Below, in pieces: positions 9,955 to 14,348 of a stretch of 15,973 nt of DNA. Position 1 is the stretch's first letter. Each line of letters begins with the position of its first letter. Below the pieces are notes generated by a model. The model saw only the letters and a list, made by a program, of their open reading frames with translations, was not told the origin of the DNA and did no database searches. Source of the DNA: an uncultured Verrucomicrobium sp. Lineage in GTDB: Bacteria; Verrucomicrobiota; Verrucomicrobiia; Methylacidiphilales; GAS474. A program made the translations under genes and the position numbers. Location: the NCBI GenBank assembly GCA_903889845.1, contig CAISZB010000091.1, forward strand, positions 1-15,973. Reading direction: 5' to 3'.

Positions 9955-10967
9955 GAGGATTTCCCCCAGCCGATTCGAAAGGCCCGGACCGCCCGTCCGA
10001 TCCGCAGGTCGAGCCGCCGGACCGCAGCCCACCACCGCCACCCCTCGCCGAACGGGCCGCAGCCCGGCGCCGCGCGCCAGTAGGCCGCCGCCGCCGCGCC
10101 GACCTCCCGCCCCAGCAGCGAGGGCCAGAGGAAAGGCCGCCGCCACGGCTTCCGGGGGCCGAGGGTGTGCGGGAGCCAGAGCGGTCCCGGGCAGAATCCC
10201 ATCGCGGAGGCGGGGGCGAACTCGACCGGCTCCTCCGTCAGCATCAGCGCCACGTTGAGGCAATCCTGGTCGGCGATGTGGAAGGGACTCGGCGCCACGC
10301 TGCTCCAGTTCCGCAGCCCGCCGACCGCCGGGGCCGCCCCGTCGATCAGATCGCGCCACAGCGAGAGGAAGCCGAGCCGCTCCCGCCGCAGGCCCAGGAA
10401 CCCGCCGTTGGCGTAGAGGCCCTCCTTCATCTCCCCCATCGGGCCGGGGAAGACATAGCCGCCGGGCGACTCCGCCTTCCCCTCCTCCCCGGACCGGAAA
10501 AAGCGCCGCCACCCCTCGCGCCGGGGGGCATCGAAGGGCATCTTCCCGTTCACGTCCTCGCAGACCGCGATCCCCCGGTCGATCCAGGCGTCGAAGTCGG
10601 CCCACGGCCGCGCCACCACCGCGTCGGCATCGATGTAGACCAGCCGCTCGAAGGGCTCCACCTCCTCCGCCGCGACGCGGAGCAGGAACTCGGGCTTGTA
10701 ATGGGTCAGATGATAATCGGTCTCGATCTCGATCAGGGAGAAGGTGAAGCCCCCGGCATCCCGCCCGTCCGCACGCCGCGCCCACTCCGGCACCCGCCCC
10801 TGGCACCCGACCCGGAAGCCGCCGCGGAAACCGGCCGCGGCCAGCGAGTTCGCCAGCGCCGCCACGCCGTCCCAGTAATCGCCCCCGCACAGCGTCGCGA
10901 CGAGCGTCCGGTCCCGCCCCGTCGGTTCCGTTTCTAGATTCATAGCCAAGTCGGACTCCGGCCTCAT
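9951..10967 (-). CDS. GT-A fold (GT8-like) glycosyltransferase
   Basis: Product of 338 aa. TLVATLCGGDYWDGVAALANSL (21-42) resembles the nucleotide-binding first strand of GT8-like enzymes. LVYIDADAVVARP (109-121) supplies the metal-binding D-x-D, and NGGFLGLRRERLGFLSLWRD (187-206) plus DQDCLNVAL (233-241) are the later GT8-type motifs (N-x-G-x-x-x-x-R, then D-Q-D-x-x-N). No membrane segment is seen, but the C-terminus is Trp/Arg-rich, as in enzymes that sit on the membrane surface. The start ATG 10967 gives an ATGA overlap with the GT2 gene; an internal ATG eight codons later (10943) is an alternative. The probable role is transfer of a hexose or uronic acid to the growing glycan with retention. 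The exact family (GT8 or an unclassified relative) is uncertain. Confidence 0.78.
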   Translation of the reverse strand: MRPESDLAMNLETEPTGRDRTLVATLCGGDYWDGVAALANSLAAAGFRGGFRVGCQGRVPEWARRADGRDAGGFTFSLIEIETDYHLTHYKPEFLLRVAAEEVEPFERLVYIDADAVVARPWADFDAWIDRGIAVCEDVNGKMPFDAPRREGWRRFFRSGEEGKAESPGGYVFPGPMGEMKEGLYANGGFLGLRRERLGFLSLWRDLIDGAAPAVGGLRNWSSVAPSPFHIADQDCLNVALMLTEEPVEFAPASAMGFCPGPLWLPHTLGPRKPWRRPFLWPSLLGREVGAAAAAYWRAAPGCGPFGEGWRWWAAVRRLDLRIGRAVRAFRIGWGKSS

Positions 10968-11857
10968 CGTCCCGGCCCCCGGCGCGTCACCGCGTTCCAA
11001 ATCATCTTCGCCCCCTCGCGCCAGCCCGCGCGGGGACCTTCCTCCCGGACCAGCGCGTCGCGCAGCGTCCAGAAGGCGACCCGCCGCTGCACCGCCTCCG
11101 CCCGCCGCCCGATCTCCCCCGCCGTCCCGCCCGACCGCGCGACCTCCTCCCAAAACCGGAGCCGCCCCGCCGTGAGATGGATCTGCTCCGGCCTTCCGGC
11201 TGCGGCCCCCTTCCAGATCGAGACCAGCGCGCCGCCGCCCCGCGCCGTCCGCGCGCCGCGTCCCAGCGCCTTCCAGACCAGCTGGGCATCCTCCGCCCCC
11301 TCGCAGCGGCCGTCGTAGCCGCCGATCTGCTCGAAGAAATCGCGGCGCCACAGCAGCGAGGCGGGCCGCCAGTCGACCGGCTCCGCCAGGCCCAGGGCGC
11401 GGAACAACTCGCCGAAGACCGCCGTGTCGACCCGCTCCTCCGTCCACGCCTCCCCGCCGCTCCCGGGGACGAAGCGGTCGTCGTGCGTCGCGAAAGGGAA
11501 AAAGACGAGGTCGTCCCCCCCCTCAAGGAACGGCGCGACCTCGGGAAGCGGCAGCGGCGTGTCGTCCCCGTCGATGTGGGCGATCCAGGGCGTCGCGGCC
11601 AGGGCCGCCCCCCGGTTCCGCGCGGCGGAACGGCCCCGGTTCACGCCGTCCTCCACGAAGCGCGCGCCCCGCCCCACCGCCGTCCCCCGCAACGAGGGCG
11701 GCAGGAGGTCGTCCGGGGAAGCCGCGTCGTTGACGAAGATCCACGCGACGCGCGGATCGGCCAGGCGCGAATCGTCAGCCCACCGCGCGACGAACTCCCA
11801 TTGCCGGTAGACCGTGACGATCCGGGTAAGCAAGGGCGCGGGAGCGGGCGGGTGCAT
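10964..11857 (-). CDS. GT2 family glycosyltransferase
   Basis: Product of 297 aa with the GT-A layout of GT2 enzymes. VNDAASPDD (42-50) takes the place of the usual V-x-D-G-S-x-D-x, GVNRGRSAARNRG (71-83) is the conserved N-x-G-x-x-x-A-R-N segment, and AHIDGDDTPLP (93-103) supplies the metal-binding D-x-D. WRPASLLWRRDFFEQIGGYDG (163-183) followed by GAEDAQLVWKAL, with the E-D catalytic-base pair at 189-190, completes the family pattern. The frame opens at ATG 11857 with a weak GGACGGGA upstream. It is the first gene after the nested-repeat element and begins the run of seven overlapping glycosyltransferase genes. It was probably once separated from wzt by only about 65 nt, so it is likely read in the same transcript. 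The transferred sugar is unknown. Confidence 0.88.
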   Translation of the reverse strand: MHPPAPAPLLTRIVTVYRQWEFVARWADDSRLADPRVAWIFVNDAASPDDLLPPSLRGTAVGRGARFVEDGVNRGRSAARNRGAALAATPWIAHIDGDDTPLPLPEVAPFLEGGDDLVFFPFATHDDRFVPGSGGEAWTEERVDTAVFGELFRALGLAEPVDWRPASLLWRRDFFEQIGGYDGRCEGAEDAQLVWKALGRGARTARGGGALVSIWKGAAAGRPEQIHLTAGRLRFWEEVARSGGTAGEIGRRAEAVQRRVAFWTLRDALVREEGPRAGWREGAKMIWNAVTRRGPGR

Positions 11858-11923: not shown

Positions 11924-11925
11924 TA

Positions 11926-11955
11926 GAGCGTGTCATGCACTTTGGGGAGGCCGCG
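11926..11955 (+). repeat. Left terminal inverted repeat of the element
   Basis: The 30-bp arm begins GAGCGTGTCATGCAC and ends GGCCGCG. It is the exact reverse complement of 12168-12197, with no mismatch. The outer two bases (TA) also match and are read here as the target duplication. Confidence 0.9.
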
Positions 11956-12055
11956 TTGCTTCTAAAACGGTCTCCATCAAGGCGCGAGCGACGCGGTGTG
12001 GCCGATGCGCCACTCAAGGAGCGAGTAACGCCGAGGGAGACCGTTTTAGAAGCAA
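11956..12055. repeat. Inner hairpin 1 of the element
   Basis: A 20-bp perfect stem begins directly at the inner edge of the left arm: 11956-11975 (TTGCTTCTAAAACGGTCTCC) pairs with 12036-12055. The enclosed 60 nt contain an apical stem GTGGC/GCCAC (11998-12013). They also hold a diverged direct repeat starting TCAAGG at 11978 and 12014, so the loop itself looks like a partial duplication. Confidence 0.85.
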
Positions 12056-12167
12056 CCCTCCGGGCCGGGGTTCTACGCCCCTTCCCCTTCGTTCTGCGCT
12101 GCCTTACGTGCCATTCAGGCACGCTGCGGCATCGCACGCCTCGGGGAGAGGGGCGTAGCCCCTCCGG
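12056..12167. repeat. Inner hairpin 2 of the element
   Basis: An imperfect stem fills the space between inner hairpin 1 and the right arm. CTACGCCCC (12074-12082) followed by TTCCCC pairs with GGGGAGAGGGGCGTAG (12143-12158) allowing a small bulge. The pairing continues with mismatches to a closed tip CGTGCC-ATTCA-GGCACG (12107-12123). A local alternative stem, GAGGGGC-GTA-GCCCCTC (12148-12164), competes with the long one. Confidence 0.72.
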
Positions 12168-12196
12168 CGCGGCCTCCCCAAAGTGCATGACACGCT

Positions 12197-12197
<1 letters not shown>
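12168..12197 (-). repeat. Right terminal inverted repeat of the element
   Basis: Exact reverse complement of 11926-11955. Its outermost base supplies the final G of the wzt TAG stop codon when read on the minus strand, while the TA duplication next to it supplies the first two bases. Confidence 0.9.
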
Positions 12198-13474
<1,277 letters not shown>

Positions 13475-13478
13475 AACC

Positions 13479-14348
13479 TTAGACCGTATCGACAAAGTTC
13501 TTTTCCACCCGATTGAAGGCGAGGACCCCCACGACGAGGACCCCCACCGTCATCGCTCCCCCGAGCCAGCCAATCCACGCCACCGGCATCGGCAGGCCGA
13601 ACCAGATCGCCTTGAACGACTCGATGGGCCAGACCAGGGGATTGAGGGCCACCAGCAGCCTCCGGGCCGCCGGCACCGACGAAAACGGATAGATGATCGG
13701 CGTGCAGAACAGCAGGAACTGCATCCCGAACGAGACCAGATGCTTCACGTCGCGATATTTCGCGCAGAGGGCGGACAGGAACAACCCGCTCCCCATCGCC
13801 AAGGCCGAGGTGTAGAAAACCAGCAGCGGAATCAGGAGAAGCCCCTGCAGACTCAACCCGGCCCGGTAGCCATGCCACCAGTAGAACGCATAGAGGGCGG
13901 CAAACACCATGAAGTTCATGACGAGTTGGAAGAGCTGCGAGAACATGCTCGAAATCGGCATGATGAGACGCGGGAAGTAGACCTTGCTGAAGATGTGGCA
14001 ATGCTCGAAGAGAACGTTCGACGAGGATATGAAGGCTGCCGAGAAATAGTTCCAAAGCACCAGCCCGCCCATGTAAAAGAGCGGCTTGGGCACCTGGTCC
14101 GTGGGCAATCCGCCGAAAACGCCGAAAACGCCGGTGAAGACGAGACTCGTCGCCAGGGGCTGGAAGAGGAACCAGATCGGGCCGAGGATCGACTGTTTGT
14201 AGCGCGCCAGGAACTCCCGCCGGACCATGACCCACACCAGGTCGCGATAGGTCCAGATCTCCATCCAGGGGATATCGAACCATCCGGAGGTCGGTCCGAT
14301 AACCTCTTCCCGGACCGAAGCCGGGAGAATAGGGGAATCCATGCTCAT
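13479..14348 (-). CDS. wzm: Polysaccharide ABC exporter permease (Wzm type)
   Basis: Product of 289 aa of the ABC-2 permease family, forming the membrane channel for the glycan exported with the adjacent ATPase. A cytoplasmic amphipathic start is followed by RYKQSILGPIWFLFQPL (49-65), a segment highly typical of Wzm/TagG proteins. About six hydrophobic segments follow, roughly at 58-78, 90-108, 135-158, 165-190, 200-225 and 255-280. NVLFEHCHIFSKVYFPRLIMP (111-131) is the conserved cytosolic loop that contacts the ATPase. The start is ATG 14348, chosen because it overlaps the sulfotransferase stop as ATGA; a second ATG two codons on is possible. The gene ends 4 nt before the wzt start, so the pair is surely co-transcribed. 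Confidence 0.93.
   Translation of the reverse strand: MSMDSPILPASVREEVIGPTSGWFDIPWMEIWTYRDLVWVMVRREFLARYKQSILGPIWFLFQPLATSLVFTGVFGVFGGLPTDQVPKPLFYMGGLVLWNYFSAAFISSSNVLFEHCHIFSKVYFPRLIMPISSMFSQLFQLVMNFMVFAALYAFYWWHGYRAGLSLQGLLLIPLLVFYTSALAMGSGLFLSALCAKYRDVKHLVSFGMQFLLFCTPIIYPFSSVPAARRLLVALNPLVWPIESFKAIWFGLPMPVAWIGWLGGAMTVGVLVVGVLAFNRVEKNFVDTV

Follow-up and report, generated by a model that had tools for sequence, protein, structure and literature searches.

A probable new family of IS5-mobilised, non-autonomous MITEs in the Verrucomicrobiota, built around a conserved branched DNA core

The non-coding body of a bacterial MITE is usually regarded as expendable, and the targets of the IS5 group, a possible source of mobilising enzymes, are TA, TNA and YTAR. 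Folded or palindromic DNA occurs in other systems as well: REP, REPIN and BIME units are palindromic repeats with covarying stems, and integron attC and other folded single-strand DNA sites combine a conserved fold with variable stems. In passages of PMC3733652, bacterial MITEs are defined as elements of 70-300 bp with terminal repeats of 15-30 bp and no coding capacity; according to PMC2516522, members of the IS1031 group insert at a site of three nucleotides. The locus described here lies in the window, i.e. the whole 15,973-nt stretch of DNA that was analysed (contig C91), which belongs to a MAG of 593 contigs and 82.7% completeness (G000). It holds a 272-bp, non-coding element (11926-12197) within the nested palindrome originally predicted at 11924-12199; the element body is below transposase size and composed of nested palindromes. 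The features of the locus are as follows:

10964-11857, minus strand: family 2 glycosyltransferase gene, downstream of the element and on the same strand as wzt
11924-11925, unstranded: putative left target duplication TA (from the sequence and the TA/TNA duplications in the family)
11926-11955, plus strand: left outer arm, with 23-bp IS5-type terminal repeat (11926-11948) and 7-bp inner part GGCCGCG
11949-12174, minus strand: 226-nt core as modelled by R1 (covariance-model match)
11956-12055, plus strand: P arm, with 20-bp stem (11956-11975/12036-12055), conserved internal blocks and apical hairpin
12052-12072, minus strand: conserved junction motif AACCCCGGCCC-NNN-GGGTTGC (reversed-pattern control: 0 in 62 genomes)
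12056-12064, minus strand: mini-hairpin CCC-NNN-GGG at the junction
12065-12167, minus strand: Q arm, with covarying imperfect stem (about 12065-12090 with 12139-12167), internal blocks and apical hairpin
12168-12197, minus strand: right outer arm, inverted copy of 11926-11955
12198-12199, unstranded: putative right target duplication TA, forming with 12197 the TAG stop codon of wzt (minus strand)
12197-13495, minus strand: ABC transporter ATPase with Wzt C-terminal domain (wzt), upstream of the element

The individual stems agreed with the original prediction: the 30-bp terminal repeats (32 bp with the flanking TA; 11924-11955/12168-12199) are perfect and extend to 35 nt at 97% identity, the 20-bp stem is perfect and sits within a 24-nt pair of 96%, and the long third stem is imperfect (31 nt, 71%). 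That either strand could fold was likewise borne out: folded as single-stranded DNA, the two strands of the element reached -116.1 and -117 kcal/mol, compared with means of -56.3 and -57.4 kcal/mol for shuffled sequences (z -15.1 and -14.4), and none of 200 shuffles attained the native energy on either strand. The expected multi-armed structure was found, but with the layout outer arm, Q arm, mini-hairpin CCC-NNN-GGG and P arm it has four arms and not the three proposed. The P and Q arms of the window copy showed no inverted homology beyond that of shuffled sequences (score 18.5 versus 20.0); in another copy, L160, 51 of 61 positions agreed (score 35, shuffled maximum 18.5) and weaker signals occurred in L175, L091 and L105, which we regard as a lead only.

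Like a typical MITE, as had been suggested, the element is multicopy and non-coding, with common ends and terminal repeats. The anticipated further copies were detected by blastn in its own genome and in relatives: G000 contains one full copy at 93% identity (on contig C365) and many partial copies, several of them at contig ends; since several contigs of this MAG end in copies, the family accounts for some of the breaks in its assembly. A subsequent blastn search of 60 genomes matched four, namely G000 itself, the same-genus G001 and G002 (the latter, a congener of the source genome, being a single contig of 3.76 Mb) and G045, which belongs to another family of the same order, as does G036. 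A covariance model of the core (R1; 226 positions) was built from 22 cores of these five genomes, the alignment rows including the hybrid copies L036 and L037 discussed below; the window core, itself among the 22, scored 225.8 bits on the minus and 82.3 bits on the plus strand. After merging of two-strand rows and with up to 150 candidates scored per genome, R1 placed about 17 copies in G000, 4 in G001, 10 in G002, 28 in G036 and 20 in G045.

The model was also matched beyond the order. With E-values that are rough throughout, 84 of 384 evenly drawn genomes of the class (5 candidates scored per genome; the five source genomes included) matched at E <=1e-3, corresponding to 57 of 171 genera, and 21 of 387 genomes matched in a phylum-wide sample overlapping the class set. 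Nine of these lie outside the class, with matches that range from 1e-26 (G537) down to partial ones of 4.5e-5, some of them weak. An element with outer arms (R1 E 6.4e-20) was even present in the betaproteobacterial Sulfuricella MAG STA_57 (JAQTNE010000018.1, L130:3024-3243); this copy may reflect transfer, contamination of the MAG or a wider spread, alternatives that are indistinguishable here. The exact core motif had no match in viral contigs, and distant blastn searches returned none among plasmids (window and Sulfuricella copies as queries) or phages (Sulfuricella copy only).

Allowing up to one mismatch, the junction motif occurred in 6 of the 62 genomes searched within the order. Its exact form was present in 12 stretches of sequence records, seven of them from Candidatus Methylacidiphilales SRB-291 and five from outside the Methylacidiphilales, the Sulfuricella MAG being one of the five. 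One of the six genomes with the motif, G058 (L096), was taken as chance, its R1 match reaching only E 0.0087; the records from Flexivirga, Actinomadura, Sulfitobacter and Rhodospirillaceae, none of which matched R1, were likewise attributed to chance. Inspection of 15 loci revealed GCCC-loop-GGG at the junction in 14, with a loop of 3 nt in 13 and of 4 nt in L170 (L174 had been mis-excised); CCC-NNN-GGG was present in 10 of 12 further loci, being absent from L309 and partial in L315. Three copies on different contigs of G143 have identical inner cores, which suggests recent movement.

In order to define the ends, the outer arms were read outward in 97 copies, of which 9 truncated or hybrid ones were left out. 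In the remaining 88, pairing was kept in 64-80 copies at positions 1-6 outside the core, in 76-85 at positions 7-24 and in 43-49 at positions 25-27, and fell to 19-30 of 87-88 beyond; the outer arm thus stops 24-27 bp outside the core and is followed by short direct duplications, TA or TNA. Direct end repeats were recorded in 51 of the 88 copies by a rule (2-4 bp, small offsets allowed) that is lenient, yet exceeded its control, in which right flanks were swapped between copies (50 trials: mean 24.2, maximum 34); the 37 copies without duplication by the same rule count against mobilisation by IS5-type enzymes. Where both flanks read T-N-A, N was the same in 12 of 13 copies and complementary in none (p 6e-7 versus 1 in 4). 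The element ends read GAGCCTGTCTGAAAATTGGG, GAGGCTGTCCGAAAAGTAGG, GAACTCTTATCAAAAGTAG, GTGTGCTGTTCATGAATTGG and similar.

From the TA flanks, mobilisation by IS630/Tc1-mariner had originally been proposed, and TA is indeed duplicated in the window copy and present on both sides in 30 rows (preceded by C in 22 and followed by G in 25). The copy ends coincide, as expected by the original prediction, but not always at TA: a 2-bp TA duplication was not found throughout the family, which also shows TNA in sister copies and the non-palindromic pairs CA/CA (L177, L133) and AA/AA (L113), and IS5_3 transposases with similar ends exist in the class (see below). An IS630/Tc1-mariner MITE is therefore highly improbable. 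The short targets fit TA, TNA or YTAR, and, judged by these duplications, the ends are IS5-type rather than IS630/Tc1.

Transposases of family PF01609 were encoded at 2 loci in the own genome and at 28 in eight other genomes (of these 30, L278 and L298 are one place). Both transposon ends of L278 resemble the element ends (17-18 of 20 positions); in L281 one end does so (18/20), and the second was found as its inverted partner. The IS5 element at L073 of the own genome has ends that match the own copy L214 at 16/20, and the paired ends of L275, whose transposase lies outside the NCBIfam scan, resemble element ends more weakly (16/20). Matches to NCBIfam IS5_3 (NF033580) were above the curated cut-off of 110 bits for L281 and L278, whereas L073, in two frames, scored 100.8 and 86.1 bits and the fragment L074 82.8 bits. 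As an end match L074 was dropped (less than 16/20), and single-end matches of 16/20 at other transposase loci (e.g. L273, L276, L291, L292) were left uncounted, since such matches are expected by chance among 191 ends. Since the element ends that matched L281 and L278 belong to other genomes, these two loci indicate the type of enzyme but do not identify the partner; both loci are moreover unlike the element ends of their own genomes, which counts against the IS5 assignment. A full-length insertion sequence carrying the terminal repeat of the window element, as had been envisaged, was not recognised in G000, G001 or G002 with the L073 and L074 transposases as the tblastn queries, a second point against the IS5 assignment. 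The window end type recurred at 29 places in these genomes (G000 15, G001 1, G002 13), and those inspected were copies, degenerate copies or single ends. Adjoining the IS5 element on contig C204 of G000 lies a core-less hairpin (L073:1083-1138; 26-nt arms of 92% identity, 4 nt apart) that holds GGCCGCG and is, by its sequence, apparently an outer-arm pair without core.

At the window locus, the right end of the element coincides with the stop codon of wzt, TAG being composed of TA and the element's first G, and from the sequence the excision of the element together with one TA would restore TAG at the same place. Among the 78 copies with enough flank, the stop codon of a long open frame (at least 120 codons) was located at the element edge in 37, compared with 26 of 166 other YTAR sites of the same flanks, TNA sites left aside (Fisher p 3e-7); open frames in these flank counts are not proven genes. 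When the two flanks were joined, 33 of these 78 copies showed an uninterrupted open frame of at least 118 codons, a feature common in G+C-rich DNA, and some copies may accordingly have been inserted into genes. An unoccupied site was sought for L002: both G001 and G002 have relatives of QueE, but there is no synteny on the other side, and no empty site was found.

RNAalifold predicted 58 pairs from the 22 aligned cores, 33 of them with both sides changed. Paired cells amounted to 94.0%, compared with 78.0% after shuffling (sd 0.8; 0 of 500 as high) and with 40-49% when partners were slid by 1-3 columns, the consensus structure being derived from the same alignment, which favours the native over the slid versions. 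A measure of further pair types was not above shuffles (94 of 500 reached the observed value). Pairing is kept while the arms vary in sequence, and conservation is seen at the junction and in some loop blocks.

Covariation of this strength along with conserved loop blocks resembles an RNA family, and both genes beside the window copy are on one strand. Selection might act on a transcript, from a structured RNA gene or as part of an mRNA, with transposon ends merely spreading the sequence. Wobble pairs, counted on one strand, help to tell at which level selection acts: the Q stem contained more GT than AC (59 versus 22 in an alignment fitted to the model; 31 versus 17 when counted per pair and genome, p 0.06), in contrast to a balance in the P stem (47 versus 44 in the same fitted alignment) and to the outer arms, where GT 35 versus AC 45 (84 of the 88 copies, 4 gapped ones dropped) gave no G-T excess of the RNA type. 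In addition, long open frames reach the element from either side and end there (18 and 23 of the 78 copies, 4 from both), and the only three Rfam matches stayed far below their gathering scores (19.3 of 137, 18.5 of 99 and 17.1 of 74 bits). The wobble balance overall fits selection at the DNA level, at least as read from these alignments, while the Q stem excess leaves room for an RNA role; as the main explanation we consider RNA unlikely.

About equally unlikely, in our view, is a neutral palindrome whose arms are continually corrected by template switching between them and whose fold is unselected. The changes are mostly between Watson-Crick pairs, and the outer arms are unrelated between subfamilies and each nearly perfect, as such correction would produce. 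It does not agree, however, with the blocks GCCC-NNN-GGGT, GTTGCTC, CTCGCGCCT and GAGC-AC, which remain highly conserved in 94 distinct copies (27 genomes) whose stems change. Mean column entropy was the same in paired and unpaired columns (1.11 each), so that conservation is confined to blocks, a point counted against a selected fold.

To our knowledge, terminal inverted repeats with direct 2-3-bp duplications are not expected of HUH enzymes. Both are present here, and with 272 bp the element far exceeds the 20-40 bp of a REP/REPIN unit; a REP/REPIN-like palindrome moved as single strand by an HUH transposase (RAYT or IS200/IS605) is for these reasons hardly credible, in spite of conserved hairpins with covarying stems and of the high enrichment of GTAG repeats that PMC3733652 describes for the verrucomicrobium O. 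terrae.

In one genome, near-identical cores were found with unrelated ends. Pairwise comparison of the 94 copies gave 133 pairs with cores more than 80% identical; in the 33 pairs with cores of at least 95%, median end identity was 0.96. In G002, by contrast, the cores of L106 and L102 agree at 209 of 211 positions (those of L106 and L092 likewise, 99.1%), whereas the ends of L106, of about the same length and with CTAG on both sides, agree with those of L102 and L092 at only 57-60% by gapped alignment, again on both sides. A single core is thus flanked by two different pairs of outer arms, which meet it at CGCG, and the core behaves as a module with changeable ends. One-sided end differences in L183 (G342, near a contig end) and L037 (G000) may be due to misassembly. 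Two different terminal repeats per copy were observed in L037 (C460) and L036 (C449) of G000, which may be hybrid elements or assembly chimaeras. In G036, the P arm and a portion of the outer arm are missing from the copies L104, L108, L112 and L100 in what looks like the same deletion, which follows GGGTTGC; all four end in TTTTGAAATGAGTTCTAG. The copy L071 (G002 C1:2349784-2349905), 122 bp long, has near-perfect ends around an internal deletion.

Taken together, we consider it probable that the element belongs to a new family of non-autonomous MITEs that are mobilised by IS5 enzymes and share a conserved, branched core of DNA, a reading for which the multicopy family, common ends, duplications above control, arm covariation, conserved junction, spread over the class and the occurrence of one core with two unrelated end pairs are taken as established. 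IS5-family transposases of the IS5_3 group would move the element in trans, with its terminal inverted repeats, some 23-25 bp long, as substrate and with TA or TNA duplicated. Either DNA strand of the core, which is about 226 nt long, can adopt the branched layout of outer arm, Q arm, mini-hairpin and P arm, and the fold itself would be kept by selection, as an extruded cruciform or as single strand at replication; the CGCG border of the core may be where ends are swapped, through recombination or template switching. More tentatively, and with somewhat less than even confidence, the branched core could be a selfish cassette that swaps pairs of IS5-type repeats, uses whichever transposase the host currently offers and so persists across lineages, perhaps phyla, its fold and loop blocks being bound by a protein (the transposase or a host replication or repair factor). 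The family apparently is undescribed, as originally supposed; no description of such elements was found by title or abstract start, in a search mostly outside subscription journals and without ISfinder, which makes the novelty provisional. A branched non-coding core that can be traced through a class and into one betaproteobacterial MAG, with near-identical cores bearing unrelated ends in one closed genome, raises a general question that can be tested: whether a non-coding DNA fold can be a unit of transposon selection, and how its ends change.

Among the known systems, the IS5 family (NF033580, IS5_3) shares with the element the AGAGCCTGTCCGAAAA-type end pattern, the short target duplication and similar paired ends at L281, L278 and L073 (more weakly at L275), but the window element has a branched core as its body in place of a transposase gene. 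REP, REPIN and BIME units are likewise palindromic with covarying stems; the element is much longer and has terminal inverted repeats and a direct duplication. With integron attC and similar sites it has in common a conserved fold with variable stems, whereas its ends, like its duplications, are typical of a DDE transposon. It resembles bacterial MITEs such as RUP, NEMIS, Nezha and ERIC in size, terminal repeats and lack of coding capacity, and differs from them in a core recognisable over the class and beyond, in covarying arms around a conserved junction and in near-identical cores that carry unrelated ends.
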